Shown here: positions 13,283 to 32,326 of the stretch, piece by piece | Layout: every line of letters starts with the position of its first letter | Numbering within the stretch: position 1 is the stretch's first letter | DNA from: an uncultured Prevotellaceae bacterium | Lineage (GTDB): Bacteria; Bacteroidota; Bacteroidia; Bacteroidales; Muribaculaceae | Assembly: GCA_946186575.1 (NCBI GenBank) | Contig: CAMHNO010000011.1 | Coordinates: forward strand, 1-64,000 | Length of the DNA stretch: 64,000 nt | Direction: 5' to 3' | Notes under the pieces: model-generated | Databases searched by the model: none | Seen by the model: only the letters and a program-made list of their open reading frames with translations | Told to the model about the DNA's origin: nothing | Program-made: the position numbers and the translations under genes

Positions 13283-13297
13283 TTTTGCAATCATTAA

Positions 13298-13337
13298 TAA
13301 TCGAGAGGCTTTGATTCACGTCAAAGCCTCTCGATTA
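13298..13337. terminator. Bidirectional terminator, 17-bp perfect stem
   Basis: TAATCGAGAGGCTTTGA at 13298-13314 is the exact reverse complement of 13321-13337, with a 6-nt loop. It lies between the convergent YdcZ-type transporter gene and nuoN, and would end the nuo-atp transcript at its 3' end. Confidence 0.8.
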
Positions 13338-13358
13338 GTGTAATATGAACAAGTATGA

Positions 13359-14831
13359 TTATTGCTGAATCATACTAAACATTGTAGACATTGCATCGGA
13401 ATTGGTGATGTTGCTAATGCCAGTGTAGATGCAACTTACAATACCAATCAGGATAATGCCCAAAGAGCATATCCACAGCCCAGCCTTCTCGCTCCAGTGC
13501 GATTTGAAAGCAGGGATTACGCACTCGTCCTGGCGGATAAACATTGCCTTAACCACGAGCAAGTAGTAATAGAGTGAAATGATGGTATTGACCAATGCGA
13601 TGAACACCAGAACGTAGATTGCCACACTGCCAGTGCTACAAGCCCCCATGAAAATGAAGAACTTGCTGAAGAAGCCAGCAAACGGAGGAATACCTCCAAG
13701 CGAGAACATAGCAAGCATCATCACGAAGGCAAGCCAGGGGTTGGTTTTGAAGAGTCCGTTGTAATCGTCGGTTGTCACTTTACCTGTCTTACGCTCTATC
13801 ACGGCTATCACACCAAATGCAGCAAGATTGCTGAAGATGTAGACGAGGATATAGTACATCATCGAAGCCATACCCTCGGCGTTGGCGGCAATCACACCCA
13901 ACATGATGTAACCTGCTTGAGATATAGACGAGAATGCAAGGAAACGCTTGAGGTTGCGCTGACGAATGGCAAAGAGGTTGCCCACAGTTATTGTGATTAC
14001 AATTACAGCATAGAGCATCCATTCCCACACAGGAGCATAAGCTGCACCAAACACCTGAACTAAGATAACAAAGAATGCAAATGCAGCCGATCCCTTACTG
14101 ATTACCGACAGATAGCTTGTAACCATTGTTGGGGCTCCCTGATAAACATCGGCAGTCCACAAATGGAAAGGAACAAACGATAGTTTATAACCCACGCCTG
14201 AGATTAAAAATGCCAGAGCAACAATGAGTAGCAACGATTTGTTGCCTTGAACGCTTGATGCAATCTCATTAAAGTAGAGTGTACCGGTAATGCCATACAC
14301 AAATGACAGACCCAACAACATGATTGCCGACGAGAATACAGCCGTTAGCACATATTTTGCTGCAGCCTCATGACTCTCGTAATACTTTTTCTCAAAGGCG
14401 ACGAGCGTTGCCAAAGGCAGTGAAGCTGTTTCGAGACCGATAACAAACACCAAGAAATGACGTCCCGAAATCATCAAATACATGCCAAAGAGCGTGAGCA
14501 GCATCAATTCAAAAAACTCGCCGCGGCGTATGGCCACAAAGTCGCTATTAGTCCACTTTATCGACTGTAACAGCACAATGAACATACCAATGTTCAAGAT
14601 ATTTTTCATTGCCCATGTGGCTTTGTTCGACTCAAACATGTCGCCAAAAGCGGAGCCATCCGGAACAGGCAAAAAACTATATATAGTGAATAGGCCAAAC
14701 ACTATTGTTGCAAACAATGGCAAGCCCTTGTGTGACTTGGATGGCATGAAAGTGTCATATAAGAATACGAGCAAGAAGACTACAAGTAGCCCTATCTCTT
14801 GCGGCATCATTAAAAATTGAGAATAATCCAT
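13359..14831 (-). CDS. nuoN: NADH-quinone oxidoreductase subunit N
   Basis: Antiporter-like proton-translocating membrane subunit of complex I, 490 residues with about 14 transmembrane helices and the proton_antipo_M domain. Key features are the conserved helix-7/8 lysine region (YKLSFVPFHLWTADVYQGAPT) and the broken helix motif GGIPPFAGFFSKF. The length is normal for NuoN. It is the last gene of the nuo-atp run, 38 bp after nuoM, and is followed by a strong terminator. Confidence 0.95.
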   Translation of the reverse strand: MDYSQFLMMPQEIGLLVVFLLVFLYDTFMPSKSHKGLPLFATIVFGLFTIYSFLPVPDGSAFGDMFESNKATWAMKNILNIGMFIVLLQSIKWTNSDFVAIRRGEFFELMLLTLFGMYLMISGRHFLVFVIGLETASLPLATLVAFEKKYYESHEAAAKYVLTAVFSSAIMLLGLSFVYGITGTLYFNEIASSVQGNKSLLLIVALAFLISGVGYKLSFVPFHLWTADVYQGAPTMVTSYLSVISKGSAAFAFFVILVQVFGAAYAPVWEWMLYAVIVITITVGNLFAIRQRNLKRFLAFSSISQAGYIMLGVIAANAEGMASMMYYILVYIFSNLAAFGVIAVIERKTGKVTTDDYNGLFKTNPWLAFVMMLAMFSLGGIPPFAGFFSKFFIFMGACSTGSVAIYVLVFIALVNTIISLYYYLLVVKAMFIRQDECVIPAFKSHWSEKAGLWICSLGIILIGIVSCIYTGISNITNSDAMSTMFSMIQQ

Positions 14832-14869
14832 ATCGAGTATATTATCTTTTTTTTAATTCAACACTATTA

Positions 14870-16390
14870 TTACATAACACTTGTCAACGCTTGAACCACC
14901 GGCGTGAAACTGTCGCGAATAATATTAATAAAGAAGTTGGGGAAACAACCTATTATCGCAACAGCAATAATCAATGTGGCAGTCGAGATGCGCTCGGTAG
15001 CATCGGCATCGGTGAGGCTGCGGTGATGCTCGTCCTGAACTGCGCCATAGAGCAGCTTGCCCACAACGCGAAGTATATAAACTGCTGTGATCACAATCGA
15101 TGTGGTAGCAGCAATAGTGAACACGCGGTGGAACATGTCGGTGTGCTCAAACGAACCCACGAAGATTGTCATCTCGGCAACAAAGCCGCTCAAGCCAGGC
15201 AAACCTAACGAAGCGAAACCTGCTATCACATATCCCACACCTAAATAAGGCATGATGTGCATCAAACCGCCCATCTCTCGAATGTCACGAGTGTGGGTAC
15301 GTCCATAAATCATACCAATCAAGGCAAAGAACAAGGCCGTCATCAAACCATGCGAAAGCATCTGCAACACCGCACCAGTCATAGCGGTGCTGTTAAACAT
15401 CAAAATGGCAAAAAGCACCATACCGCAGTGGCTAACCGACGAGTAAGCATTGATATATTTAAGGTCGGTCTGAACGCATGCGCTGAACGCACCATACACA
15501 ATACTAATTCCGGTCAAGGTCAGGAAAATCCAGCCAAGTTGCTGTGCAGCAAAAGGCATCAAGTAAATTGCAATGCGGAAACAACCATAACCTCCCAGTT
15601 TCATAAGCACACCAGCATGAAGCATCGACACTGCAGTGGGCGCACTGGCATGACCATCGGGCGACCAAGTGTGGAATGGGAACATAGCTCCAAGCACACC
15701 AAATCCCACAAAGGTCATCGGGAAGAGGAACATCTGCCAGTTGTGAGGTATTGCATTGTTCTTGGCAATATCGAGCAGATTCATTGTGTATTCGCCAGGT
15801 GTTGATGTTGAGTGGAAGTAGATGCCAATAATGCCAAGCATTAGGAATGCCGAGCCTCCCATAAGCATGAGAGTAAGCTTCATGGCGCTGTAGTTCTTAT
15901 TACCACTACCCCACACTCCAATGAGCAAGTACATTGGTATAAGAGCAACCTCATAGAACATGAACATGGTGAACAGGTCAACGCTGATAAAGAAGCCAAA
16001 CACACCCGTCGACAAAAGGAAGAACCACAGGAAAAACTGCTTGGGAAGCGGATCCATCTTCCACGATGCAAACACACCGGCAAAGACGATGAACGCCGAA
16101 AGCAATATCATCACCACCGAGACGCCATCCACACCCAGTGCAAGTTTTATATTCAATGGCTCATACCACATTACACTGGTTTGCAATATCATGTCGCTTG
16201 TGTCGCCCGCAGCACGTGCATGCAGGAAATACACAACAAGATATACAGCCAGTCCCACCAGTGCTGTTGCGCCTGTGACGGCAACGGCTCTAATCGCGTC
16301 AATGCCCTTGTTCTTGGTCAAGGCAAGGCCTGCCAGCGTGAGCACCGGAATAATCACGAAATAAATAAGCATATTAGAGAAAATTTCCAT
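14870..16390 (-). CDS. nuoM: NADH-quinone oxidoreductase subunit M
   Basis: Antiporter-like membrane subunit of complex I, 506 residues with about 14 transmembrane helices. The conserved glutamate on helix 5 (FMFYEVALIPMYLLIGVWG) and the lysine and histidine of the FPFHTWSPDGHASAPTAVS segment are present, together with the broken-helix motif LGLPGLSGFVAE. Length and motifs fit NuoM rather than an Mrp antiporter. It lies between nuoL (28 bp upstream) and nuoN (38 bp downstream) on the minus strand. Confidence 0.95.
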   Translation of the reverse strand: MEIFSNMLIYFVIIPVLTLAGLALTKNKGIDAIRAVAVTGATALVGLAVYLVVYFLHARAAGDTSDMILQTSVMWYEPLNIKLALGVDGVSVVMILLSAFIVFAGVFASWKMDPLPKQFFLWFFLLSTGVFGFFISVDLFTMFMFYEVALIPMYLLIGVWGSGNKNYSAMKLTLMLMGGSAFLMLGIIGIYFHSTSTPGEYTMNLLDIAKNNAIPHNWQMFLFPMTFVGFGVLGAMFPFHTWSPDGHASAPTAVSMLHAGVLMKLGGYGCFRIAIYLMPFAAQQLGWIFLTLTGISIVYGAFSACVQTDLKYINAYSSVSHCGMVLFAILMFNSTAMTGAVLQMLSHGLMTALFFALIGMIYGRTHTRDIREMGGLMHIMPYLGVGYVIAGFASLGLPGLSGFVAEMTIFVGSFEHTDMFHRVFTIAATTSIVITAVYILRVVGKLLYGAVQDEHHRSLTDADATERISTATLIIAVAIIGCFPNFFINIIRDSFTPVVQALTSVM

Positions 16391-16418
16391 AATCTTTACT
16401 GTATTTTAGAACCGTTGA

Positions 16419-18401
16419 TTAAAAACATAGTATCACTACACCTGTCACAGCAGCCAGCAACACAGCGCCAATGATATAGTAAGAAACATAGCCTTGAACA
16501 TTGCCCGATTGCATCTTGCGTATGCCAAACGAAGCACTGTTTGTGACATTGCCAAGCAAATTGAAAAATCCATCGATGATGGTGCGGTCAAACCAGGCTA
16601 TTGGCTTGCTAATGCTCTGGAATATAATCTTATGTGTTATGAACTGATAGAGCTCGTCCATGTAGAAACGTTTGTAACTTGCCGTCCACAAGCCCTTGAA
16701 CATTGTTGCAAGCTTGTCGGGCAATGGATTCTCTTTCCAGTACATCATTGTAGCAAGACCAATGCCTATCAATGCGATTCCAACGCTGGCACCAGCAATA
16801 GGCCAATTCATGTGAGTTTCGAGCTGTGCTCCATCCCATGTCACGAGTTTGCCAAATGGGGCAAATCCTGCCACACAAGAAATAATAGCCAGCACAATGA
16901 GAGGCACTGTCATGGTCCAAGGCTGATCCTTTGGAGCATGCTCGCCATGAACCTCATGTTTTTTCCAGAAGAAAATGAGATAGTAGATTCGGAACATGTA
17001 GAAAGCGGTCATTCCGGCCACCATGCTCATCCACAAGCCCCAGCCTATTCCCTTCTCATAGCAAGCCACAAGAATCTCGTCCTTGCTAAAGAAACCTGCA
17101 AAGGGTGGAATACCAGCGATTGCCAAGCATCCAATCAAGAATGCAATGCTGGTGATAGGCATGAATTTGTGAAGACCATGCATCTTGCTGTTTTCGTTGC
17201 TGTGAACTGCATGAATGATTGCACCAGCGCACAAGAAGAGCAATGCTTTGAACATAGCGTGAGTGAACAAGTGGAACATCGACGCCATGTAGCCTAAGCC
17301 TGCCTCGTGCCCACCCAAGAGCTTACCATTGGCTGAGCTAACAGCAAGCGAGGTCATCATGAAGGCAATTTGTGATATGGTAGAGAATGCAAGTGCTCGC
17401 TTGATGTCACTCTGAGTGCAGGCTACTGCAGCAGCATAAAACGCGGTGAAGGCGCCTACTACACAAATGATATCCATAGCTCCTTGTTCAAGCACATAGA
17501 GCGGGAACATGCGGGCTACAAGGAACACACCTGCCACAACCATAGTGGCTGCATGAATCAGAGCCGAAACGGGAGTTGGACCCTCCATTGCATCGGGAAG
17601 CCAGATGTGCAGTGGATACATCGCACTCTTGCCAGCACCACCAATGAAGATGAATGTCAAAGCCCATGCAGTGACCGAGCACCCCATGAAGGTCAGCCCT
17701 TGAGCACTTGTGAATGCGTTGCAAACGTCATGACCATTAGCACCCATTATCTCCTTGAAGTCAAACGTCTTAGTGTAGAACGAAAGAATCAAGATACCAA
17801 TCAAGAAGAACAAGTCGGCAAGACGCGTAACGATAAATGCCTTCTTGGACGCATGATTAGCTGGTTGCTGACCATAATAGAATCCAATGAGCAAATAGGA
17901 CGAAACTCCCACCATCTCAAAGAAGATGAACATCTGGAAGATATTGGTCGACACAACAAGTCCAAGCATAGAGAATGTGAACAATGCCAAGTCGGCATAA
18001 TATCGCTGAAAACCTTTCTCGGGGTTGCCATCATGGTCGCTCATGTAACCCAAGCTATAAAGATGAACCATAAATGACACCGTGCTGATGACAACAAGCA
18101 TCATCGCCGATATTGGATCGATGAGAACGCCAAGTTTCACCACAAGTTTGTCGGCATAGAACGAGAGCCATGTCCAGTCGGTGGCAACTACTTGCTGGCG
18201 CACGCCATCAAGCATTTGTCCCTCACCATTGCCAAAGAAATAAGTAAACGCTATGGCATAAGCCCATACTGTGGTTACGGCCATTCCCAGAACTCCTATC
18301 ACACCTGTAATCTTGCGAGGCATCTTCACGCCCACAAGTCCCAAAAACAGGAACATAAACAGTGGGATGGCAAGAACATATATTGTACTACTAAGTGGCA
18401 T
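16419..18401 (-). CDS. nuoL: NADH-quinone oxidoreductase subunit L
   Basis: The largest antiporter-like subunit of complex I, 660 residues. The N-terminal part has the NuoL/oxidored_q1_N domain, then the proton_antipo_M core with the FFEMVGVSSYLLIGFYYG glutamate helix, the AMYPLHIWLPDAMEGPTPVS segment and GIPPFAGFFSKDEI. The C-terminal portion carries the long lateral helix and final membrane anchor typical of NuoL. It forms the distal proton channel. It begins 6 bp after nuoK and precedes nuoM by 28 bp. Confidence 0.95.
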   Translation of the reverse strand: MPLSSTIYVLAIPLFMFLFLGLVGVKMPRKITGVIGVLGMAVTTVWAYAIAFTYFFGNGEGQMLDGVRQQVVATDWTWLSFYADKLVVKLGVLIDPISAMMLVVISTVSFMVHLYSLGYMSDHDGNPEKGFQRYYADLALFTFSMLGLVVSTNIFQMFIFFEMVGVSSYLLIGFYYGQQPANHASKKAFIVTRLADLFFLIGILILSFYTKTFDFKEIMGANGHDVCNAFTSAQGLTFMGCSVTAWALTFIFIGGAGKSAMYPLHIWLPDAMEGPTPVSALIHAATMVVAGVFLVARMFPLYVLEQGAMDIICVVGAFTAFYAAAVACTQSDIKRALAFSTISQIAFMMTSLAVSSANGKLLGGHEAGLGYMASMFHLFTHAMFKALLFLCAGAIIHAVHSNENSKMHGLHKFMPITSIAFLIGCLAIAGIPPFAGFFSKDEILVACYEKGIGWGLWMSMVAGMTAFYMFRIYYLIFFWKKHEVHGEHAPKDQPWTMTVPLIVLAIISCVAGFAPFGKLVTWDGAQLETHMNWPIAGASVGIALIGIGLATMMYWKENPLPDKLATMFKGLWTASYKRFYMDELYQFITHKIIFQSISKPIAWFDRTIIDGFFNLLGNVTNSASFGIRKMQSGNVQGYVSYYIIGAVLLAAVTGVVILCF

Positions 18402-18407
18402 AACTGT

Positions 18408-18719
18408 TTAGAATTTCATTTTGGTTATTTGGTTAATGTCAACATTCTTAGCAGCGCGATACACATTAATGATAATTGCAATGGCCACAGCAGTCTCGGC
18501 TGCTGCAATTGCAATGGCAAATAGTGTAAAGAACATGCCCTCTTGTTGAGCAGGGAACAAATAACGGTTAAACACTACAAAATTAATATCAACCGAGTTG
18601 AGCATCAACTCAAGCGAAATCAAGATTGCTATCATATTCTTGCGGGTGATGAACCCATAAACACCGCAGCCAAACATTATAAGACTGGGGATGAGATACA
18701 TTATTAAATTCAAATCCAT
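18408..18719 (-). CDS. nuoK: NADH-quinone oxidoreductase subunit K
   Basis: Small membrane subunit of complex I (MrpC/ND4L homologue), 103 residues with three transmembrane helices. The two conserved membrane glutamates are visible in ILISLELMLNSV and IAAAETAVAIAI. It forms part of the proton path next to NuoJ. Spacing to nuoJ is 16 bp and to nuoL 6 bp, consistent with translational coupling. Confidence 0.95.
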   Translation of the reverse strand: MDLNLIMYLIPSLIMFGCGVYGFITRKNMIAILISLELMLNSVDINFVVFNRYLFPAQQEGMFFTLFAIAIAAAETAVAIAIIINVYRAAKNVDINQITKMKF

Positions 18720-18735
18720 TTCTTATCCTCCTTTC

Positions 18736-19251
18736 TTAACGTTTGCGCGCAATTACTATGCCACCAATGATGCATGCAAGCAACAAGACGCTAACAGCCT
18801 CAAAAGGCAACAGATATCCATACTTGTCGGTACTAAGAAGCATCTTGCCAAGGCTGTCGATGGTGAAATCGCTCATCGATGGCAACGACTGCCCACAGAA
18901 TTTAGCGTAGCCCAACATCGCAGCGCCACAAAGCAGCACTCCTGCGCCACAAGCAACCAAGCCAAGTGTGCGCTTGTGAGAAGTGATAGGCGCGGCGTCC
19001 TCGCCAGGCTTGTGTGTGAGCATTATAGCGAACACAAACAAGACCACGATACCACCTGCGTAGACGGCAATTTGCGTTGCTCCCAGAAACTCATAGTCCA
19101 TCTGGAAATAGATGGCTGCTGTTGCAAGCAAGACAAACAGCAGATAGGTTGCTGAGCGCAAAATCTTTTTTGTCGTCACCGCAAGCACCGAAAACACTAT
19201 AATTGTCAAAGCAATTATAACATACATGATTACATTTCCAAGTGACTCCAT
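18736..19251 (-). CDS. nuoJ: NADH-quinone oxidoreductase subunit J
   Basis: Membrane subunit of complex I (ND6 homologue), 171 residues with five transmembrane helices. The helix-3 segment YEFLGATQIAVYAGGIVVLF, with the conserved Tyr/Gly of the pi-bulge, is intact. The ATG at 19251 gives the family N-terminus (MESLGNVIMYV); a longer reading from 19317 would overlap nuoI by more than 60 bp and adds an unrelated basic stretch. The start codon is one base away from the nuoI stop codon, so translation is probably coupled. Confidence 0.94.
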   Translation of the reverse strand: MESLGNVIMYVIIALTIIVFSVLAVTTKKILRSATYLLFVLLATAAIYFQMDYEFLGATQIAVYAGGIVVLFVFAIMLTHKPGEDAAPITSHKRTLGLVACGAGVLLCGAAMLGYAKFCGQSLPSMSDFTIDSLGKMLLSTDKYGYLLPFEAVSVLLLACIIGGIVIARKR

Positions 19252-19252
19252 A

Positions 19253-19834
19253 TTATTCTGTTTCTTTTTGTTCCTGACTGGGTTGAACATCCTTTGGCTC
19301 ATCGACTTTAGTCTCAACCTTGGGCTCGTCGACCTTAGCTACAGGCTTGGCGGCTGCCGGCTTTGGTTCAGGAGCAGGCTTCTCCTTCTCGGGCAGATAA
19401 TTCAACTGCTTGACAAGTGCCTCGCGACGGAACACCGCCTGCTCAAAGTCGTTAGAGAACTCAATGGCATTAGTGGGACATGTGGTTACACAAAGTCCGC
19501 AGAAGGTGCAACTTCCCAAGTCGTAAATGTACTTGTCGAGTTTCATCTTCTTCTTGCCATTGGGCAGGTCAACCATGCGAGTGATGATTTGAATTGTACC
19601 ATTGGGGCAATTGCGCTCACAAGTCTTGCAAGCGATGCACTTGTGGTAACCCTCGTCGTCATAGATGAACTGCAACGTGGCTCTAAATCTCTCGGGGATT
19701 TGCAACTCGGCCCTATTCTCGGGATACTGCTCAGTGACCTTCTTGGTAAACAGCTCTTTACCAGTCACCTCCATTCCCTTGATGAGGCTATGAGTTCCCT
19801 CAATCAGTGAAGAGAAATACTCCTTGATGTTCAT
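19253..19834 (-). CDS. nuoI: NADH-quinone oxidoreductase subunit I with a C-terminal disordered tail
   Basis: Peripheral-arm iron-sulfur subunit of complex I, 193 residues. Two canonical CxxCxxCxxxCP motifs (CIACKTCERNCP and CTFCGLCVTTCP) ligate the N6a and N6b 4Fe-4S clusters that pass electrons to NuoB. After about residue 147 comes a tail of about 46 residues rich in Pro, Lys, Glu and Val, with the KVDEPK unit occurring twice; it is predicted to be disordered and is not part of the usual fold. This is the first gene after the ATP synthase block, 140 bp from atpG, the largest gap in the whole run. NuoJ follows directly. Confidence 0.95.
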   Translation of the reverse strand: MNIKEYFSSLIEGTHSLIKGMEVTGKELFTKKVTEQYPENRAELQIPERFRATLQFIYDDEGYHKCIACKTCERNCPNGTIQIITRMVDLPNGKKKMKLDKYIYDLGSCTFCGLCVTTCPTNAIEFSNDFEQAVFRREALVKQLNYLPEKEKPAPEPKPAAAKPVAKVDEPKVETKVDEPKDVQPSQEQKETE

Positions 19835-19892
19835 ATATTAATTTTAAGTTTCTTCGGTGCTGCGATTAGGTCAACACACAATATAACTACTA

Positions 19893-19944
19893 TTATGCCT
19901 TTAATTGATTAAATATTATCTTGCTGAGACGCAAACAGGCATAA
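19893..19944 (-). other. Stem-loop in the atpG-nuoI gap
   Basis: TTATGCCT (19893-19900) and AGGCATAA (19937-19944) form an 8-bp perfect inverted repeat around a 36-nt AT-rich loop, in the only long gap of the nuo-atp run (19835-19974). It has no U-run after it, so it is not a typical terminator. It may be an mRNA processing or stabilising element. I found no TAnnTTTG promoter box on the minus strand here. Confidence 0.35.
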
Positions 19945-19974
19945 ACAATCTGCGAAACAAGCAATTATAGCATT

Positions 19975-20862
19975 TCATCGTTCCACCTGACCTCCCAAGA
20001 TGTCCAGAAGCTCGGTGGTGATGCTTTGTTGCCTTAGTTTGTTATACTCCAGGTTAAGCTCCTCGAGAAGCTCGGCAGCATTGTCGCTTGCTGTCTGCAT
20101 AGCCATAACGCGGGAAGCTTGCTCCGAAGCAGCGCTCGAAACAAAAACCTCTTGCATTGTTGCGCGCAGATGCAATGGCAACACACTGTTAAAAATGCTA
20201 TTAGCATCGGGCTCAAAGATGCATGGTGTAGCTTCGCTCTTAGCATCTACATCTTGCGACAAAGCCTTGGGGCTCAACGGCAACAATTGCTCACATTGAA
20301 GCAACTGCCGGCTTGAACTAACATATTTCATGTAGACGACATACACGAGATCGGCATTTTGCGACACAAATCGAGTGCGAAGCATGTGGGTGAAGTCGGT
20401 GAGATGCTCCACAGTGCTGCGAGTGTTCATGTAATCAACATCCACAATCTTCAGGCTCGAAGATTCAATTTTGTGAACTGCCTTGGAAATCTTCTTGCCT
20501 ACAGGAACAATAGTAATTTCTGTTTCTTTGCCATGCTCCTGCTTAAAGCCATCAATGACCATAAGCAGTTGCTTGAAAATATTGATGTTGAATGCGCCAC
20601 ACAGGCCGTCATCACTACCGTAAACAACAATAGTGATTTTCTTTACCTCGCGTTCTTCAATCAAGGGCGAATTAAACTCTATGCCAGTAGTAAGCAAGTG
20701 GCTTAGCACTTCGCTAACCATGCCTCGATATGGCTTCAAGCGCTGAAGCATTCCAGTGGCCTTATGCATCTTGGCCGACGAAATCATCTTCATCGCGCTC
20801 GTTGTCTTCTCGGTCGAAGCAACCGAGCCAATGCGTCCTTTAAGTTCTCGTAGTGTTGCCAT
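19975..20862 (-). CDS. atpG: F1Fo ATP synthase gamma subunit
   Basis: Central rotor shaft of the F1 sector, 295 residues. The N-terminal helix (RELKGRIGSVASTEKTTSAM) and the C-terminal helix (AELLEELNLEYNKLRQQSIT, TELLDILGG) that form the coiled-coil shaft are both clear. It is the last gene of the atp block, 34 bp after atpA. In standard bacterial operons gamma is followed by beta and epsilon; here those two genes open the block instead, the Bacteroidota arrangement. Confidence 0.95.
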   Translation of the reverse strand: MATLRELKGRIGSVASTEKTTSAMKMISSAKMHKATGMLQRLKPYRGMVSEVLSHLLTTGIEFNSPLIEEREVKKITIVVYGSDDGLCGAFNINIFKQLLMVIDGFKQEHGKETEITIVPVGKKISKAVHKIESSSLKIVDVDYMNTRSTVEHLTDFTHMLRTRFVSQNADLVYVVYMKYVSSSRQLLQCEQLLPLSPKALSQDVDAKSEATPCIFEPDANSIFNSVLPLHLRATMQEVFVSSAASEQASRVMAMQTASDNAAELLEELNLEYNKLRQQSITTELLDILGGQVER

Positions 20863-20896
20863 TAAAATAGCTTAAACCTAAAAATCAACAATTATA

Positions 20897-22474
20897 TCAA
20901 GCTTTGTATTTGCCTGAAATTTCATTAGCAGCCTCTTTGAGCTTAGACATCACGTCATCATCAATCTTGCCACTCTTGAGAACGTCAAGAACGTCTTCTT
21001 GATGCTTGGCATGAAGATACTGGATAAGAAGCTGTTCAAACTCTGCCACTTTATTGAGGGGCACGTTCTCGAGTAAGCCGTTCACTCCACAATAGATAAC
21101 AGCAATCTGCTCATCAACAGGAACTGGCTTGTACTGCGGCTGAACGAGCAAGCGCTCATTTTTGCGGCCAGTGTCGATAGTGCGAGCTGTCACCGGATCT
21201 ATGTCGCCACCAAACTTGGTGAAAGACTCCAGCTCTCGGAACTGAGCTTGTGCAATCTTGAGTGTTCCGGCAACCTTTTTCATCGCCTTGATTTGGGCAT
21301 TACCACCCACACGCGACACAGAAATACCAACGTTCACGGCAGGACGAATACCATTGTTGAACAAGGCCGTCTCAAGGTAAATCTGCCCGTCGGTAATCGA
21401 AATTACATTAGTGGGAATATAAGCACTCACGTCACCCGCCTGGGTCTCGATAATGGGGAGAGCAGTGAGCGATCCGCCACCTTTGACCTTGCCCTTAAGG
21501 ACTGCTGGAAGGTCGTTCATAGCCTCAGCTACCTTTTGGTTGTCATTAATTTTTGCGGCACGCTCAAGCAGGCGGCTGTGCAGGTAGAAAATGTCGCCTG
21601 GATAAGCCTCGCGGCCCGAAGGACGCTTGAGGATTAGCGAAATCTCACGATAGGCAACAGCCTGCTTCGACAGGTCGTCATATACAACAAGAGCATCACG
21701 GCCAGTGTCTCGGAAATACTCTCCAATGGCTGCGCCAGCAAATGGAGCATAGTAGCGCATCGATGCCGAGTCGGCCGCTGTTGCGGCAATTACAACACTA
21801 TAGGGCATTGCTCCATGCTGATTGAGTTGGTTGACGAGAGCGGCGACAGTAGATGCCTTCTGACCGATTGCCACATAGATGCAATAAACAGGCTTCCCTG
21901 CCTCGTAGCCAGCCTTCTGATTAATTATTGTGTCAACAGCAATAGCAGTCTTGCCAATCTGGCGATCGCCAATAATGAGCTCACGCTGACCACGACCAAT
22001 GGGAATCATCGAATCGATAGCTTTAAGTCCGGTCTGCAATGGTTGGTTTACTGGCTGGCGGAAAATCACACCAGGAGCTTTGCGCTCAAGAGGCAAGCGC
22101 ACAAGTTCCCCTTCTATTGGACCCTTGCCGTCGAGTGGCTCACCCAGAACGTTGATAACACGTCCCAGAAGCCCCTCTCCCACAGGAATCGAAGCAATCT
22201 CGCCAGTGCGGCGCACCTTCATGCCTTCCGACACGCTGTCGACCTTGTCCATCAAGATCACACCCACGTTGCTCTCCTCAAGGTTCATGGCAACGCCAGT
22301 TACTCCATTTTCAAACTCAACAAGCTCATTAGCCTCAACATTCTCAAGTCCATAGACATGAGCAACGCCGTCGCCTACTTCAAGCACAGTGCCAACTTCT
22401 TCAAACGACACTTTGCTTTGAATGTCGCTCAGTTGCTGTTTCAGTATGTCAGATATTTCACTTGGATTTATCAT
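20897..22474 (-). CDS. atpA: F1Fo ATP synthase alpha subunit
   Basis: Regulatory nucleotide-binding subunit of the F1 hexamer, 525 residues. The Walker A motif is GDRQIGKTA, and the alpha-specific [17 protein letters not shown] signature and the QREL segment are present. It binds nucleotide at non-catalytic sites and supplies the arginine finger (SVSRVG) to the beta subunit. It starts 10 bp after atpH and precedes atpG by 34 bp. Confidence 0.97.
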
Positions 22475-22484
22475 CTCACTCTTA

Positions 22485-23024
22485 TTAACTTAGGAGTTTT
22501 AAACGCAATTTTTCTAATTGGCTTTTCACCGATGCATCGAGCACGCGTGAATCAACACTGACCATAAACCCACCAATCAGGTCGGGATTAACGCTCTGGC
22601 TGAGCTCAATAGTTTTGTTGTCCAAGTGCGATTTCACTACATCGACAATAGCATTAATCTCGTCGTCGCCGAGCTTGGCTGCGGTAACGACTTCAACTTT
22701 TGCAATGCCATTTAGCTCGCGATACTGCTTCATGAAGGCGAGCGCAATAGCACGCATAAAGTCAATTCGGTTGTTCTTGATAACTAACTCCATGAACTTT
22801 GCCGATGTGCCATCAATCTTGGCTCCTGACACTGCACACATCAACTTCAGTTTGTCGCCTGTGGGCAGGAATGGATTGTTGACAGCCTTCTTCAACTCAC
22901 CTTCGCAAGAATAGGCAACTTCAAGTCGCTTCATCTCATCATAGACTTGCGATGTGTCGCCTCGCTCTATTGAGAGCTTGTAAAGAGCTTTGGCATATCG
23001 GTTAGGGATAAGTCCGTCGTTCAT
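22485..23024 (-). CDS. atpH: F1Fo ATP synthase delta subunit (OSCP)
   Basis: Stator subunit joining the b-subunit stalk to the top of F1, 179 residues. The N-terminal helical bundle begins [17 protein letters not shown] and the C-terminal domain contains the conserved [22 protein letters not shown] segment. Spacing is 11 bp from atpF and 10 bp to atpA. Confidence 0.94.
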
Positions 23025-23035
23025 TGTTTCATTAG

Positions 23036-23533
23036 TTAATTGCTCGATTCAACCTCTTTAAGTAGTTTCTCAACCAGGGCGCGTTGGGAATTATCGTCGC
23101 TCATGTTTTGCCTAATCACCTGTTCGGCAATTTGAAGAGCATAGGAACCCACGTCCTGGCGCAACTGGTGCTCACTCTCCTTGCGTGCCTGTTCTATCGA
23201 CACTTGAGCAGCATCGGTCACTTTCTTTGCTTCGACAGCCGCCTCAGCCTTGGCTTGCTCGATGATTTCGGTTTTCATCTTTGCGGCGTCGCGCAATATG
23301 TCAGCCTGCTGTTTGCGTGCATCGGCAACGAGGGCATCGGCCTCGGCTTTGGCATTGTCGAGCTGCGACTTAGCCTCTTGAGCATAGGCCACTCCCTTAT
23401 CAATTAAGCTGGCGCGATCGTCCATACTCTTGATAATGAAAGGCCATGCCCATTTTGCCAGGATGAAATACAGGCATGCAAATGCCAGAAACATCCAGAA
23501 CACCAGGCCAAATTCAGGCTTAAATAGTTCCAT
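23036..23533 (-). CDS. atpF: F1Fo ATP synthase b subunit
   Basis: Peripheral stalk subunit, 165 residues: one N-terminal membrane helix (about residues 7-29) followed by a long charged, Ala-rich helix that dimerises as a coiled coil (AKSQLDNAKAEADALVADAR). Only one b gene is present, so the stalk should be a homodimer. It lies between atpE (28 bp) and atpH (11 bp). Confidence 0.95.
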   Translation of the reverse strand: MELFKPEFGLVFWMFLAFACLYFILAKWAWPFIIKSMDDRASLIDKGVAYAQEAKSQLDNAKAEADALVADARKQQADILRDAAKMKTEIIEQAKAEAAVEAKKVTDAAQVSIEQARKESEHQLRQDVGSYALQIAEQVIRQNMSDDNSQRALVEKLLKEVESSN

Positions 23534-23561
23534 TTAAAAAACCTTTCTTTTGCTTGAATTA

Positions 23562-23819
<258 letters not shown>

Positions 23820-23852
23820 CTAAAAATTTTAATTGTTATTATTATTTTTTTA

Positions 23853-24956
23853 TTATTCTGTTACAGCTTTAGACTCTTCACCATGGATGTGAGCCATTGA
23901 AATAAAGATTGTTGACAATAGTGTGAACACAAATGCCTGGATGAAACTAATAAGCGTGTCAAGTACAAGCATGAATAACGCTAATGCCACCGACACAACC
24001 GACGTGCCAGCACCTACTCCCACGCCAAACATGCCATTAAACACCATTATCAGCACTATAAGAACTATCACAACCATGTGGCCACCAAGCATGTTGGCAA
24101 AAAGACGGACCATGAGAGCTAAAGGCTTGGTAAGGATGCCAAGGAATTCAATGAGTGGCATCATTGGCACTGGGCACTTGAGCGCCATGGGCACATCGGG
24201 CCAGAAGATGTCCTTCCAGTAATGCTTGGTTCCAGTGAGATTGGTGACTGCAAATGTGATTAGAGCAAGCACCATAGTCACAGCCAGGTTACCAGTAAGA
24301 TTGGCGCCACCTGGGAAAATCACAATGAGTCCAAGCAAGTTCATTGTAAGAATAAAGAAGAATGCAGTGAGCAGGTAAGGGCCATATTTGGGGGCTTCTT
24401 TGCCCATTATGGGCTTGATAGTGTCGGTATAAACAAACTCTATGATAAGCTCAAGCATGCCCTTAAATCCATTGGGTCCTTTCATCCCCTCTCGCTTGTA
24501 CCACTTGCGCAGGCTCATCGCCATTGCTATGACAAGTGCAGCTGCAATCATGATTCCGAGAACATTCTTAGTAATTGAGAAATCCCACGGACGATATTCG
24601 CTGCCATCACCTAGCACTTGTACTAATTTGCCTTTATAGCCACTCTCTTCATTTGTCGAGATTTTAAAAACAACATCTCCGTCTTGATAAGAGTCGCCAC
24701 TTGTCACCATACTCGACATGAAACAGTGCAGACTGCCATCCTGGGCAAAGGCAATGATGGGAAGTGGAATCTTCCTGGTGTGAGAGAATGGAACCTCCCA
24801 GCCATAAGCATCGCCCAAGTGTTCGAAGATGATCTCCTTAGGCTCCACTTTACCACTATCATGACCTTCACTACCATGCGAAGCGCTATCTACATAGCCC
24901 CAAGCCATTAGTGCGAGAATCACAAGTGCTACTATTGCTGTTATAACTTTTTTCAT
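23853..24956 (-). CDS. atpB: F1Fo ATP synthase a subunit with extended periplasmic N-terminus
   Basis: Membrane stator subunit that carries the proton half-channels, 367 residues. The essential arginine lies in ALMVRLFANMLGGH. Compared with E. coli (about 270 residues) it has a signal-like first helix and a long hydrophilic N-terminal region (about residues 25-130, His/Glu rich near HGSEGHDSGK) ahead of the membrane core. This long form is usual in Bacteroidota. Note HIHGEESK at the very C-terminus. The gene follows atpC by 38 bp with no atpI-like gene in between. Confidence 0.94.
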   Translation of the reverse strand: MKKVITAIVALVILALMAWGYVDSASHGSEGHDSGKVEPKEIIFEHLGDAYGWEVPFSHTRKIPLPIIAFAQDGSLHCFMSSMVTSGDSYQDGDVVFKISTNEESGYKGKLVQVLGDGSEYRPWDFSITKNVLGIMIAAALVIAMAMSLRKWYKREGMKGPNGFKGMLELIIEFVYTDTIKPIMGKEAPKYGPYLLTAFFFILTMNLLGLIVIFPGGANLTGNLAVTMVLALITFAVTNLTGTKHYWKDIFWPDVPMALKCPVPMMPLIEFLGILTKPLALMVRLFANMLGGHMVVIVLIVLIMVFNGMFGVGVGAGTSVVSVALALFMLVLDTLISFIQAFVFTLLSTIFISMAHIHGEESKAVTE

Positions 24957-24994
24957 AAAAAATTATGAAAGCATCAATATATTATTTTTTTATT

Positions 24995-25228
24995 TTAATA
25001 AAGACAAACACTCACAACATTGTTCTTAACGTCGGCAATTCCCCCTTTTATGTCTCGCTCATGGGTGGTGTCGCCAGCTACATAAGTCATTGTCCCTTCC
25101 ACCAAAGATGAGATGAGGGCCGCATGGTTGTTCAGAATCTGAAAAGATCCCATTGTCCCGGGTAACGTGACAATGTCAACTTCACCTTCAAACTCTATTT
25201 TCTCGGCCGAAATTATTCTTAATATCAT
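24995..25228 (-). CDS. atpC: F1Fo ATP synthase epsilon subunit, short form
   Basis: Rotor subunit of only 77 residues, made of the N-terminal beta-sandwich (MILRIISAEKIEFEGEVDIV, LPGTMGSFQILNNHAALIS). The C-terminal helical hairpin of the usual protein of about 135 residues, which in many bacteria inhibits ATP hydrolysis, is absent. No second reading frame downstream restores it, so this is not a frameshift. The gap to atpB is 38 bp. Short epsilon subunits are known in Bacteroidota, and the enzyme is expected to lack epsilon-type auto-inhibition. Confidence 0.93.
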   Translation of the reverse strand: MILRIISAEKIEFEGEVDIVTLPGTMGSFQILNNHAALISSLVEGTMTYVAGDTTHERDIKGGIADVKNNVVSVCLY

Positions 25229-25264
25229 AGTGTTTCAGTCTTTTAAAAATTAAATCTCACTGGT

Positions 25265-26779
<1,515 letters not shown>

Positions 26780-26810
26780 TTATTATATCTGCTGTTATTT
26801 TTCTTAACTG

Positions 26811-27893
26811 TTATCCTGCAAAATGCCAACCCATGCTCACAATCACAGCCATAAGCACAAGGTTGAACAGCCCTATTGGCATGAGGTAGCGCCATTCAAG
26901 TGCAAGCATCTGATCGATGCGGACACGGGGGAACGACCACTTGAACCAGATAATGATAAAGGATACAAATATTGCCTTCCCTAAGAACCAAATAATCGAG
27001 GGAATATAGTCCATCACAGCATTGAAGCCATCCCAACCATTAATGTGCAGTGGCATCCAGCCGCCCAAGAAGAGCAGTGTGGCGATTCCAGACACTATGA
27101 AGAGGTTAAGATATTCGGCAAGGTAGAAAAAGCCGAAGTGGATGCCAGAATACTCGGTATGATAACCGGCTGTGAGCTCATGTTCGGCCTCGGGAAGGTC
27201 GAAGGGGCCGCGATTGGTCTCGGCGGTAGCGGCAATTATGTAAATAATAAAGGCGATGATTGCAGGAATGTGACCGGTGAAAATAAACCAGCCTTTCTCT
27301 TGAGCCTGAACAAGACCTGTCACACTCATCGTACCTGCAAGGCACACAATGGTGAGCATGGCGATGCCAATCGACAGCTCGTAACTAATCATCTGGGCAC
27401 CACTACGCATGGCACCTATCATGGTGTATTTGCTATTACTGGACCAGCCAGCAAGCAAGATTCCAACCACGCCAAGCGACGACACAGCGGTCATGAAAAA
27501 CACGCCTATGTTGAAGTCAATAGCCTGAAGCCCTTTACCCCATGGCAAGCATGCAAAAACCACAACCGATGCAACAAGCACAAAATATGGCGCAAGTTTG
27601 TGAAGGAAGTTGTCGGTTTTCCACAATCCCACGACCTCCTTAATAAGCATTTTAATTACGTCGGCAAAAATCTGCAATGTTCCCCAAGGGCCCACACGCA
27701 GAGGGCCTCGACGACATTGGAACCAAGCACACACCCAACGCTCGTACATGATGTAGAACATTGCAAGCACCGTGTAACCAAGCAACAATAATGCCCCCAC
27801 AATCACACACTCGATGGTAGTTGCAAGCCATTCGGGCATCACCCCAACCAGCAGGTCATTAAACCATTTAGTGACTACACTGAAGTCAAACAT
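26811..27893 (-). CDS. nuoH: NADH-quinone oxidoreductase subunit H
   Basis: Membrane subunit that forms the quinone chamber at the joint of the complex I arms, 360 residues with about eight to nine transmembrane helices. Conserved features include the acidic loop AETNRGPFDLPEAEHELTAG and the FPRVRIDQMLALEWRYLMP segment. It is the last nuo gene before the ATP synthase block; in most bacteria nuoI follows directly. It lies 59 bp after nuoCD. Confidence 0.95.
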   Translation of the reverse strand: MFDFSVVTKWFNDLLVGVMPEWLATTIECVIVGALLLLGYTVLAMFYIMYERWVCAWFQCRRGPLRVGPWGTLQIFADVIKMLIKEVVGLWKTDNFLHKLAPYFVLVASVVVFACLPWGKGLQAIDFNIGVFFMTAVSSLGVVGILLAGWSSNSKYTMIGAMRSGAQMISYELSIGIAMLTIVCLAGTMSVTGLVQAQEKGWFIFTGHIPAIIAFIIYIIAATAETNRGPFDLPEAEHELTAGYHTEYSGIHFGFFYLAEYLNLFIVSGIATLLFLGGWMPLHINGWDGFNAVMDYIPSIIWFLGKAIFVSFIIIWFKWSFPRVRIDQMLALEWRYLMPIGLFNLVLMAVIVSMGWHFAG

Positions 27894-27952
27894 ATTGAAT
27901 ATTATAATTATGTGTAATTTATAATCTATTTCTTCTCTCTCGTGGTCGCCGT

Positions 27953-29602
27953 TTATCGGTCAATGTCAGGAATCACATAATCAATCGATGCTGTGATTGT
28001 GATAAGATCGGCTATAAGATTGTCTTTACAAGTGAGGTCCACAATTCCCACTAAGTTGAAACATGGACTCTGGAAATGAAGACGATATGGTTTCTGGAAG
28101 GGTTTGGGATCACCATCGCTCTCCAAATAAACACCAAAGGCTCCACGACTACCCTCCACTTGCTGGTACCAGTGGCCAGCAGGAAGTTTGATGAGTTTGG
28201 GAACTTTAGCAATATATTCTCCTTCAATACCTTCTTGCTCAAGCATGTCGCAGCACTGACGCAGAATCTTGATGCTCTCCTCAATCTCCTTCATACGCAC
28301 CATGTAACGGTCCATAGAGTCACCGCCATTGAGCAACACCTCGTCAAATTCCACTTCATTATATAGTGAATAAGGGTGGCACTTGCGCACGTCGCAATGA
28401 TGCCCACTGGCACGTCCCGAAGGACCAGTGATGGCATAGTTGATAGCATCATCCTTGCTCAAAATTCCTACTCCAACCATACGATTGCGAGCAATCACGT
28501 TGCCTGTGAAGAGCTTGTGATACTCCTTGAGGTTCTTGGTTATGACATCACATGCATGTCGCACATCATTGATAAATTCGGGATGCACATCGGCCTTAAC
28601 ACCTCCAATGGCAAGATAGCTCATCGACATGCGAGCGCCACAGGTCTTGTCGAATATGTCATATATAAGCTCACGGTCGCGGAAGCCATAGAAGAATGCA
28701 GTTGTTGCGCCCTGATCCATAGTCAAGCAGCCGTAACTCAACAAGTGACTTGACAAGCGCATGAGCTCGTCCATCATCATGCGAATTAGCTCAGCGCGGT
28801 GAGGTACTTCAAGGCCCATAGCCTTCTCGATGCACAGGCACAGGCAATGACGATTGATGTGTGCCGACATGTAATCCATTCGCTCGGTGTAAAGCAATGT
28901 TTGTGGATAGGTGAGGCTCTCGCACATCTTCTCGATGCCACGGTGAATGTAGCCGCTCACAACGTCAACCTTTTTAACGAGCTCACCCTCGATCGATGCG
29001 CGATAACGCATCACGCCATGGGTTGAAGGATGCTGAGGGCCAACGTTCACAACATATTCGTCATCGCCAAACACCTTGCCGTTGATGCGCGTCACGTTGC
29101 CATTCTCATCTTCTACCAAGCGATAGGTGTCATCTTCATTTTCCTCATCGTCAAGGCGCAGTGGGTTCTTTTCGGGCGAATCGTCATAATCCTTGCGCAA
29201 GGGATGTCCCACCCAATCGTTGCGCAAGAAGAAACGGCGCATATCGGGATGATTGATAAACTCTATGCCATAGAAGTCAAACACTTCACGTTCCTGATAG
29301 TTGGCAACAGCCCACAGGTCGCTCACGCTGTGCAAGCGTGGTGTCTCTCTGTCGGTTGTGGCCACTTTAACATGAATAACTTCTTGTGTCTCAGTATTGG
29401 TCAAGTAGTACATCACTCCAAGCTCTTCTTTCCAGTCAACTCCAACGAGCGCTGTGAGGTAGTCGAAGTGCAATTCCTCCTTGAGCGATTTTGCAAGATC
29501 GTGCCACTGTGCGTCAGGGACACTAATCAGCAGAAACTCTCCCGAAGCATCAATTTGAGCCGAAGAACACAGTTTGCCGATTTTTTCTTGTAAGTCTGCC
29601 AT
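27953..29602 (-). CDS. nuoCD: Fused NADH-quinone oxidoreductase subunits C and D
   Basis: A single 549-residue protein joining the 30-kDa subunit (about residues 1-150, with REVFDFYGIEFINHPDMRRF) to the 49-kDa hydrogenase-like subunit (about residues 185-549, with NVGPQHPSTHGVMRY near its start). The 49-kDa part lines the quinone cavity; the HPSTHG histidine loop is intact. The linker is acidic (RLDDEENEDDTYRLVEDEN). The C-D fusion is known in Bacteroidota and gamma-proteobacteria. It follows nuoB by 36 bp. Confidence 0.96.
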   Translation of the reverse strand: MADLQEKIGKLCSSAQIDASGEFLLISVPDAQWHDLAKSLKEELHFDYLTALVGVDWKEELGVMYYLTNTETQEVIHVKVATTDRETPRLHSVSDLWAVANYQEREVFDFYGIEFINHPDMRRFFLRNDWVGHPLRKDYDDSPEKNPLRLDDEENEDDTYRLVEDENGNVTRINGKVFGDDEYVVNVGPQHPSTHGVMRYRASIEGELVKKVDVVSGYIHRGIEKMCESLTYPQTLLYTERMDYMSAHINRHCLCLCIEKAMGLEVPHRAELIRMMMDELMRLSSHLLSYGCLTMDQGATTAFFYGFRDRELIYDIFDKTCGARMSMSYLAIGGVKADVHPEFINDVRHACDVITKNLKEYHKLFTGNVIARNRMVGVGILSKDDAINYAITGPSGRASGHHCDVRKCHPYSLYNEVEFDEVLLNGGDSMDRYMVRMKEIEESIKILRQCCDMLEQEGIEGEYIAKVPKLIKLPAGHWYQQVEGSRGAFGVYLESDGDPKPFQKPYRLHFQSPCFNLVGIVDLTCKDNLIADLITITASIDYVIPDIDR

Positions 29603-29638
29603 ATATAATAATGTGTATATGTTTTTAATAGTTTTAAA

Positions 29639-30232
29639 TCACTCCGCATTTTGTTCAAAGAACTTCTTGCGGCTTTCCTTGCGGTTAACACCACCAAAGA
29701 ATTTCTGAACCTTTATCTTACGTTGCAACTGCATCAACGCGTAGAACATTGCCTCAGGGCGCGGAGGGCAACCAGGCAGATAGACGTCTACTGGGATGAT
29801 TTCATCTATACCCTTGACCACGCAATAGCTGTTCTTGAAAGGGCCACCACTGACGGTGCATGCCCCACATGCAATAACATACTTGGGCTCGGCCATCTGC
29901 TCATACAGGCGCTTCAGGGCAGGTGCCATGCGATAAGTAATTGTACCCTGACACATTATATAATCGGCTTGACGAGGTGAATTGCGCGCCACCTCAAAGC
30001 CAAAGCGTGCCATGTCGTAACGTGCTGCGCCCAAGCACATGAACTCGATAGCGCAACAACTTGTTCCAAAACAGAATGGCCACAGCGAGTTGCTGATGCC
30101 CCAGTTAATCAACTGATCGAGCTTTCCAACAACAACATTAGTGCCACTGGCGTTCAATTCCTGCACGAGCTGGTCAATGTACTCATTGTCCTTGAAGTCC
30201 TCGTGCTTCATGCTCTTTATCTTTACTTCCAT
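29639..30232 (-). CDS. nuoB: NADH-quinone oxidoreductase subunit B
   Basis: Carries the terminal cluster N2 that reduces quinone, 197 residues. Ligands are the adjacent cysteines in FGTSCCAIEF, the cysteine in IACGACTVSGG and that in YLPGCPPRPEA. The N-terminus (about 35 residues) is hydrophilic and variable. The start codon overlaps the 3' end of nuoA by 10 bp, so translation is coupled. The C-terminus is basic (GGVNRKESRKKFF). Confidence 0.96.
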   Translation of the reverse strand: MEVKIKSMKHEDFKDNEYIDQLVQELNASGTNVVVGKLDQLINWGISNSLWPFCFGTSCCAIEFMCLGAARYDMARFGFEVARNSPRQADYIMCQGTITYRMAPALKRLYEQMAEPKYVIACGACTVSGGPFKNSYCVVKGIDEIIPVDVYLPGCPPRPEAMFYALMQLQRKIKVQKFFGGVNRKESRKKFFEQNAE

Positions 30233-30591
30233 CTCAATGCTCCTTTCTTCCAGGCGTAAGCCAAGCCCAAAACTAATATAAACAGGAAAGTGCCCACAGC
30301 AATCAATGCTGTCGAGCCTAAATCCTTAGCAATCGTAGCCCAAGGAAAGAGGAAAACAGTTTCCACATCAAACAAGAGGAACAAGATTGCAAACAGATAG
30401 TAACCCACATGGAACTGCGCCATGCTATCACCGCGAGTGGGAATTCCACACTCATAGGTCTCTCCTTTCTTAGTTGTAAAACTGCGAGGGCCTATCAAGC
30501 GGGCTATAAGCAAGGCTGCAAACACAAGCACCGCGCCTGTGATCACTGCTGTAACAGCAAGTGTGGCATTCTGAATTGTTAGTAAAACCAT
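30223..30591 (-). CDS. nuoA: NADH-quinone oxidoreductase subunit A
   Basis: Small membrane subunit (ND3 homologue), 122 residues with three transmembrane helices. The conserved loop YECGIPTRGDSMAQFHVGYY corresponds to the conformational-switch loop near the quinone site, and the FLLFDVETVFLFPWA helix has the conserved acidic residues. It is the first gene of the run; the upstream region contains a promoter box about 290 bp away and a structured leader. Confidence 0.95.
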   Translation of the reverse strand: MVLLTIQNATLAVTAVITGAVLVFAALLIARLIGPRSFTTKKGETYECGIPTRGDSMAQFHVGYYLFAILFLLFDVETVFLFPWATIAKDLGSTALIAVGTFLFILVLGLAYAWKKGALRWK

Positions 30592-30886
30592 AAAAAACTA
30601 ATTGTTATAGTTGTTAATTATTATGTTCTTAATCAATATAAGCAAGTAATATAGTAAGCATCGCGCAATGAACAATAGAGTTCTTAAGCTAATGAATGCT
30701 CCTTACTTGAGACAATTGTGTCATAACATGAGAGAATATTCCGCATGCCCACAGAGCAATTGCCTTGCGAGTCATGTGATTGATATATATGTTTTCTCTC
30801 ATTAATTGCAATTAATAAAAGCCAGCATGAGTCCTTTAGTTTTGCGCTACAAAAGGAGAGTATGCTGCTTTTGCGGTGCAAATATA
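30592..30886 (-). promoter_or_regulatory. Candidate promoter and structured 5' leader of the nuo-atp operon
   Basis: The minus-strand box TATATTTG (30879-30886) is an exact TAnnTTTG match. A transcript from about 30872 would have a leader of about 280 nt. Right after the start it can fold AAAGCAGCATACTCTCCTTT against AAAGGACTCATGCTGGCTTT, ending in CUUUUAUU, which resembles an attenuator. Further down, ATGAGAGAA and TTCTCTCAT form a perfect 9-bp stem. I see no convincing gene in the interval; short reading frames there lack a recognisable product. Confidence 0.45.
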
Positions 30887-31312
30887 GTCATTTTTTTTTA
30901 TTAATAAGTCATCTTCATTAATATAATTATTAACAATTTCATTCATCATTTACAATCTTTTTTTAATCCCCTGATTTTATGCTTTCAAAGTAAATTGCTA
31001 TCTTTGCATGTCGACAAGCATTCACGCCAAGTAAGCTGTTTTGAGACACAAAAAACGCCCTCAGATACAACATCTTGTTTCACAGCTAATTATGTAAAAA
31101 ATTTTAAGTATAAAGACAAACTTTTACACTTTTTAGCGGTCAAAATTGGGCTTATGTCGTAATAAATGCATACTTTTGTGCGTTCAAAAAAACGTAGTGA
31201 CCCACTTTTGAGGTCAACAAGAAGCAGGAGAGCAAGCTTCGCAAACTGTGCTTGACACTCCATTTTCAATTCAGTATTTATTTTGCTTCTTGAAACTTTT
31301 AAAAAGCAAGTT
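30887..31312 (+). promoter_or_regulatory. Intergenic region with two candidate promoters upstream of the M23 gene
   Basis: This gene-free stretch holds TATCTTTG at 30999-31006 and a second box TACTTTTG at 31171-31178 with a weak -33 match (TTGG, 31146-31149, 21-bp spacing), both on the plus strand. The second would give a leader of about 130 nt for the M23 gene at 31313. The first could drive a longer leader or a small RNA. AGCTGTTTTGAGACA near 31031 pairs imperfectly with TGTTTCACAGCT near 31078. Confidence 0.4.
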
Positions 31313-32083: not shown

Positions 32084-32114
32084 TAAAACGATTTTTTTAG
32101 CACATAATACATTC

Positions 32115-32150
32115 CGGCCCAGTCTTTGTGAGATTGGGCCGAAATATTTT
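32115..32150 (+). terminator. Intrinsic terminator after the M23 gene
   Basis: CGGCCCA (32115-32121) pairs with TGGGCCG (32135-32141), followed by AAATATTTTA. It is 31 bp after the stop codon. Confidence 0.6.
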
Positions 32151-32253
32151 ATTGCCAAGATTCACTACAATATAATTCTTCTATAATGTGTGCTATCCTT
32201 CATTAAAAGTGAAAAACTTAGTCCACACTGGCACTCAGCTTATTTTTTTTGAC

Positions 32254-32261
32254 TAATTTTG
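32254..32261 (+). promoter_or_regulatory. Promoter -7 box for the fatty-acid transporter gene
   Basis: TAATTTTG, an exact TAnnTTTG match 65 bp before the ATG at 32327. No clear -33 box. Confidence 0.45.
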
Positions 32262-32326
32262 CAGGTCACTAACCAAAAATGAATAAATAATTATTCATAT
32301 TACTTATTTCAAAGAACTTCTATCAA

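Follow-up and report, generated by a model that had tools for sequence, protein, structure and literature searches.

The locus and its genes

The stretch of DNA analysed here, called the window below, comprises the first 64,000 nucleotides (nt) of contig CAMHNO010000011.1 from the assembly of an uncultured Prevotellaceae bacterium (GCA_946186575.1), which the Genome Taxonomy Database places in the family Muribaculaceae. Between positions 13359 and 30591, its minus strand carries 18 genes in the order nuoA-B-CD-H, atpD-C-B-E-F-H-A-G, and nuoI-J-K-L-M-N, as read from the open reading frames and from NCBIfam scans. The ATP synthase (atp) operon is complete and lies exactly between nuoH and nuoI of the complex I (nuo) operon; this insertion, and the order and placement of all 18 genes, agree with the initial annotation of the window. 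All eight F-type ATP synthase subunits are present (a, b, c, alpha, beta, gamma, delta, and epsilon, the last one short and below the cut-offs), together with the complex I subunits NuoA, B, C, D, H, I, J, K, L, M, and N, of which C and D are fused. For 14 of the 18 genes, the score exceeds the curated cut-off of one or more NCBIfam models of the expected subunit; the other four (nuoA, nuoI, nuoJ, and atpC) also hit the expected models, but stay under all the curated cut-offs listed.

All features described in this section are on the minus strand. The cluster begins with nuoA (30223..30591; NF005839, E 3e-31, below cut-off), which overlaps nuoB (29639..30232; NF011391, E 2.5e-105) by 10 nt. 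After 36 nt comes the nuoCD fusion (27953..29602), whose first part matches NuoC models and whose second part passes the cut-off of the NuoD model NF004739; nuoC and nuoD are split in most relatives. A 59 nt gap separates it from nuoH (26811..27893; over the cut-off of NF004741), the sole NuoH match in its own genome. The first join, nuoH-atpD, is 37 nt long (26774..26810).

The insert opens with atpD for F1 beta (25265..26773; TIGR01039, E 4.1e-234), followed 36 nt downstream by atpC for F1 epsilon (24995..25228). The atpC product has 77 amino acids and covers the first 75 or so positions of epsilon models that are mostly 100-145 long, so that only the N-terminal part is matched, below cut-off (E 4.9e-15). 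Then, 38 nt further on, atpB for Fo a (23853..24956) passes the cut-off of TIGR01131 over residues 134-354, with about 120 residues preceding the matched part. The remaining genes of the insert all pass their cut-offs: atpE for Fo c (23562..23816; TIGR01260; 36 nt after atpB), atpF for Fo b (23036..23533; TIGR01144; after 28 nt), atpH for F1 delta (22485..23024; TIGR01145; after 11 nt), atpA for F1 alpha (20897..22474; TIGR00962, E 2.2e-226; after 10 nt), and atpG for F1 gamma (19975..20862; TIGR01146; after 34 nt).

The second join, atpG-nuoI (19835..19974), is at 140 nt the widest gap of the cluster, and it contains an RNA pseudoknot. Beyond it lie nuoI (19253..19834; TIGR01971, E 4.2e-30, 103.8 bits against a cut-off of 113.05) and nuoJ (18736..19251; NF005163, E 1.3e-22, below cut-off). 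In the list of reading frames, nuoJ begins at an upstream TTG and overlaps nuoI by 65 bases; the ATG at 19251, just beyond the nuoI stop, is preferred, since matches to the family models begin at about residue 27. The last four genes all pass their cut-offs: nuoK (18408..18719; NF004320) 16 nt after nuoJ, nuoL (16419..18401; NF005141) 6 nt after nuoK, nuoM (14870..16390; TIGR01972) after 28 nt, and nuoN (13359..14831; TIGR01770) after 38 nt. Gaps had been described as mostly 1-60 bp, and, apart from the nuoA/nuoB overlap and the nuoI/nuoJ boundary, they do measure 6-59 nt, with the second join as the one exception.

The nuo set is of the headless 11-subunit complex I type. None of the 18 genes is nuoE, nuoF, or nuoG, the rest of the genome not having been searched for them. 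The label "NADH dehydrogenase" used initially does not fit, since a set without NuoE, F, and G has no NADH module; the description of the set as complete for its type is right, the same three genes being absent at the locus in Bacteroides fragilis according to the portion of the report that treats its nuo operon (PMC7002350). That operon has the same headless set and differs in that no ATP synthase genes are mentioned inside it in the portion concerned; its deletion left NADH:quinone activity without a significant change (PMC7002350). For Prevotella, the relevant passage of another study calls the complex headless and proposes Na+/H+ antiport as a possible role (PMC6560451). A separate NqrA is encoded elsewhere in the window's own genome.

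The same genome encodes a single NuoH, a single AtpD over cut-off, and a single AtpG; a second atp copy is ruled out, as there is neither a second AtpD over cut-off nor a second AtpG. The ligands of sodium in c subunits are Gln and Ser, and when the atpE product of the window is aligned to the sodium-specific chain 1yce these two ligands are lacking. The c subunit is apparently of the proton type, to judge by this alignment.

Spread and probable single origin of the nested layout

The layout is found throughout the family. Named genomes were scanned with the NuoH of the window, which gave 198 confirmed relatives, and the best 80, i.e., the closest, were kept. All 80 have nuoH followed by atpD, and 70 of them also have atpG followed by nuoI; the other 10 loci end before nuoI. 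In an even draw of 59 Muribaculaceae genomes, nuoH-atpD occurs in 56, atpG-nuoI in 55, and both joins in 54, with nuoI detected in 58. The five genomes without both joins (G426, G432, G434, G435, and G443) have at least one of the four join genes missing or the genes on separate contigs, and in none of these five is nuoH beside nuoI. Every genome of the draw with readable joins has the nested layout.

Across the order Bacteroidales, a scan gave a NuoH match in 237 of 393 genomes. From the matches listed, 71 nuoH loci were picked, five of them in the window's own family and otherwise one or two in each family: 14 of these are nested, 56 have nuoH before nuoI, and 1 is cut at nuoH. A scripted recount recovers 54 of the 56, missing L094 and L095 owing to a second nuoI upstream. 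The nested loci belong to seven families (f1, f22, f28, f60, f68, f88, and f109), and two single-contig genomes of related families (G259 and G292) are among the nested ones. The search of Bacteroidales for the nuoH-atpD and atpG-nuoI adjacencies, suggested with the initial annotation, thus located them in 54 of 59 family genomes and in seven families. An apparent loss of nuoJ-N in one genome (G235, locus L077) was rejected, as the sequence enters a run of N where the nuoI reading frame ends, which marks a scaffold gap and not a broken operon. Beyond the order, at the level of the phylum, 61 genomes were surveyed and the best 30 loci read; atpD follows nuoH in none of these 30, a weak negative, the next gene being nuoI in 19 and nuoJ in 4, with nothing recognised in 7 short loci.

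A single origin is indicated by a FastTree phylogeny of NuoB, NuoD, and NuoH. It has 67 tips, made up of the window and 66 of the 71 loci (five partial loci were not entered), and its 15 nested tips are monophyletic with a support of 0.988.

Transcription signals and RNA structures at the joins

Promoters were sought with the motif TTG, 18-22 nt, TAnnTTTG, which we take to be the consensus of the Bacteroidales type. For motif counts within gaps, L001, L084, L169, L179, and L196 were dropped, leaving 94 loci with the window included. The motif occurs in the 250 nt upstream of nuoA in 28 of 92 loci, against 1.46 expected from simple shuffles that ignore kinship. It is found in none of 94 nuoH-atpD gaps (0.23 expected) and is missing from 82 of 84 atpG-nuoI gaps. 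A terminator-like pattern was counted in 10 of 84 atpG-nuoI gaps (4.8 expected) and in 3 of 94 nuoH-atpD gaps (1.6 expected). Neither join of the window has a sigma-70-like or a terminator-like match; across positions 13000-31500 on both strands, such matches occur about as often as by chance (28 against 29.8 and 15 against 17.5, respectively). The statement that the joins hold no strong promoter or terminator is consistent with these counts, the promoter motif being absent or rare in the joins of relatives also. The nuoH-atpD join is tight, with gaps of 18-146 nt (median 40) in relatives, the survey of gap lengths including a few redundant loci.

One transcript starting at nuoA and carrying the whole cluster is plausible, because the motif is concentrated in front of nuoA and scarce or missing in the joins. 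Of the earlier proposal of one transcription unit, what stands is this plausibility, drawn from the short gaps and the promoter motif. The fixed stoichiometry proposed along with it is not supported, since genes that share a transcript need not yield proteins in set ratios, and since the atpG-nuoI gap is wider and more often structured than nuoH-atpD. When gaps of at least 45 nt were compared by folding, a z score below -2 was obtained for 21 of 67 atpG-nuoI gaps versus 4 of 37 nuoH-atpD gaps.

The pseudoknot of the second join is of the H type (19893..19954, minus strand), with a first helix pairing 19954-19948 with 19936-19930 and a second one pairing 19944-19937 with 19900-19893. By eye, the first helix has an outer extension (19964-19960 with 19925-19921), and a possible hairpin, GUGUUG...CAGCAC, follows the pseudoknot at 19857..19877 in 11 of 13 aligned sequences (not in L008 and L010). 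A general pseudoknot scan detected such structures in 18 of 67 atpG-nuoI gaps, against a shuffle mean of 7.35 and a maximum of 13, while each control gap stayed within its own shuffle maximum (nuoH-atpD 0/37, nuoCD-nuoH 1/50, atpB-atpE 0/55, and atpA-atpG 3/22). With an AURCC anchor and its downstream complement, under limits that were set after examples had been seen, 26 of 84 atpG-nuoI gaps pass. It took this anchor, and the swap test described below, to make the signal clear. The pseudoknot-bearing gaps are those of the window, L003-L008, L010-L013, L018, L024, L026, L030, L032, L035, L037, L041, L044, L046, L049, L060, L061, L062, L067, L068, and L074.

Adding L030 and L046, found with relaxed limits, and G412, G433, and G427 from further genomes to the 26 gave a set of 31 sequences. 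In this set the second helix is nearly constant (AURCC..GGYAU) and the first helix varies almost freely while remaining paired. The summed pairing of the first helix is 241, versus 133 when its halves are swapped at random (standard deviation 10, highest 173), the observed value being inflated because 26 of the 31 were partly chosen for a paired first helix. None of 5000 swaps reaches the observed value, and the same result (0 of 5000) was obtained for the 13 sequences of the window's type, in a test that ignores the tree. The first helix is weak (score 3.5) in L003, L006, and L012, and G405, from the same genus as the window, is without the element.

The strict patterns of the second helix occur at 36 places in the 59 family genomes, versus 28 when the pattern is read backwards, and six of the 36 are inside the atpG-nuoI gap (G410, G412, G414, G415, G431, and G433). 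The pattern of the window's type occurs at 24 places versus 14 backwards, two of them inside the gap (G000 and G427). That such a match should fall by chance in gaps of about 100 nt is very unlikely. The window's own genome holds no second DNA copy of the element, six short matches being at chance level. Rfam gave three chance-level matches in window positions 13000-32500, none of them in the join, and none at the gathering score in seven relatives, its covariance models not scoring pseudoknot pairs; plain RNA folding, which omits pseudoknots, gave a z of -0.32 for the join of the window. The element is tied to the nuo-atp locus in part of the clade.

The pseudoknot may act in cis to tune nuoI-N separately from the atp genes; protection from RNases is an alternative role. 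It is a tentative suggestion, and a rather doubtful one, that the pseudoknot belongs to a class of cis-acting RNA not yet described, whose origin postdates the nesting and which would set the expression of nuoI-N apart from that of atp in response to an energy-state signal.

Other gaps are folded as well. In L144, L145, L121, L127, and L056, hairpins seen by eye lie in the atpG-nuoI gap soon after atpG, some of them with T runs, and the gaps of the last four have a z below -2; they are perhaps remnants of an old atp terminator. Strongly folded atpA-atpG gaps of nested loci include those of L069, L025, L048, L022, and L053.

How the nesting arose and what it may mean

The best explanation, which we consider probable, is that the whole native atp operon moved once into the nuo operon of a common ancestor and has stayed there, the cluster being expressed as one transcript with RNA structures tuning nuoI-N. 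In the common ancestor of the Muribaculaceae and six related families, the operon atpDCBEFHAG would have entered a headless 11-subunit complex I operon in one piece, at the boundary of nuoH and nuoI, and would have been kept there since. A promoter upstream of nuoA would drive one long transcript of all 18 genes, and structures at atpG-nuoI, presumably the pseudoknot in the genus of the window and some other genera and hairpins in others, would give nuoI-N an expression level of their own. Coordinated expression of ion pumping and ATP synthesis is plausible from this arrangement.

Several observations weigh against this explanation. The second join is loose, with a range of 10-344 nt and a median of 77.5 in relatives (the median nuoH-nuoI gap of un-nested loci is 16), and 2 of its 84 gaps do contain the promoter motif, above the 0.27 expected. 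The region upstream of nuoA in the window itself has no match to this motif, and its count upstream of nuoA in relatives, based on simple shuffles, is not corrected for relatedness. The atpA-atpG gaps of 45 nt or more are more strongly folded than those of the join, 18 of 22 having a z below -2 with a median of -4.1. Finally, an AtpD tree of 53 tips (the 15 nested ones and 38 of 40 other genomes with AtpD over cut-off, the partial AtpD of G047 and G249 being left out) joins the 15 nested tips and an un-nested genome, G106, with a support of 1.0. This genome (family f106) adjoins f88 in the AtpD tree, but lies outside the nested group in the Nuo tree. Its nuo and atp operons (L185-L186) are about 11 kb apart on one contig (C8) and face each other. 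Four readings of G106 can be given: it may preserve a stage close to the move, it may have lost the nesting, it may have acquired its atp genes from a nested relative, or one of the two trees may be wrong at this point.

A serious competitor, with a chance that we would put somewhat short of even, is that the nesting was a neutral accident of rearrangement held by inertia, most separations breaking one of two important gene sets. Inertia, too, predicts one origin and the lack of rearrangement in the 54 family genomes with readable joins, and it accords with an insert sitting exactly between two genes. However, operons are often broken over such evolutionary depth, which makes some selection for the join likely, and G106 may be a case of separation.

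It is possible, if rather unlikely, that the operons are nested physically but work as separate units, with internal promoters, processing, or attenuation splitting the cluster at the joins. The greater width of atpG-nuoI, its folded and pseudoknot-bearing gaps, the hairpins after atpG, and the excess of terminator-like patterns and of the promoter motif there all fit such a division, whereas the near or total lack of the promoter motif in the two joins, the short nuoH-atpD gaps, and the few terminator-like patterns in them do not.

It is improbable that the nested group obtained its atp operon by lateral transfer from a donor outside the order instead of by a native move. The midpoint root of the AtpD tree, whose tips are all from within the order, does part the nested group and G106 from all others. 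Against a transfer, the window's genome has no AtpD over cut-off besides the nested one, and free-standing operons of the same genes in the same order (atpDCBEFHAG), differing from the insert in lying outside nuo, occur in four of the Bacteroidales loci that were fetched (L185, L188, L190, and L195); a move of a whole native operon therefore suffices. The GC content of the insert (0.474) is close to that of its flanks (0.475 for nuoA-H and 0.460 for nuoI-N), and an insert of foreign composition is ruled out by GC together with GC at third codon positions (GC3). That the two operons were fused by a chimeric assembly is next to impossible, for although the 2.7 Mb genome of the window is an 80-contig assembly, independent and single-contig assemblies rule out an artefact: nuoH-atpD recurs in all of the best 80 named loci, both joins in 54 of 59 family genomes, and the nesting in the single-contig G259 and G292.

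The family of the window is presumably the one formerly called S24-7. The presence of atp genes inside the complex I locus was reported for "Ca. Homeothermaceae" (family S24-7) by Ormerod et al. in 2016 (PMC4936053), and the window, with its atp genes inside the complex I locus of a Muribaculaceae genome, fits that report. The layout, of which the initial annotation knew no description, is already known; what is new here is its spread, its origin, and the RNA element. In the passages concerned, that report gives the nesting one sentence, which covers neither joins nor gene order, origin, or spread; to this the present analysis adds both joins, six more families, and a probable single origin. 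According to the same report, genome H5, which is 85% complete, is without both the nuo and the atp sets (PMC4936053); a single event may therefore be enough to lose the two.

The nested layout consistently marks a gut clade. It is also a natural example of an ion-pumping complex and the ATP synthase probably being expressed from a single mRNA. Should the pseudoknot prove to be a regulator, it would illustrate how separate control over the parts can return to an operon after such a merger.

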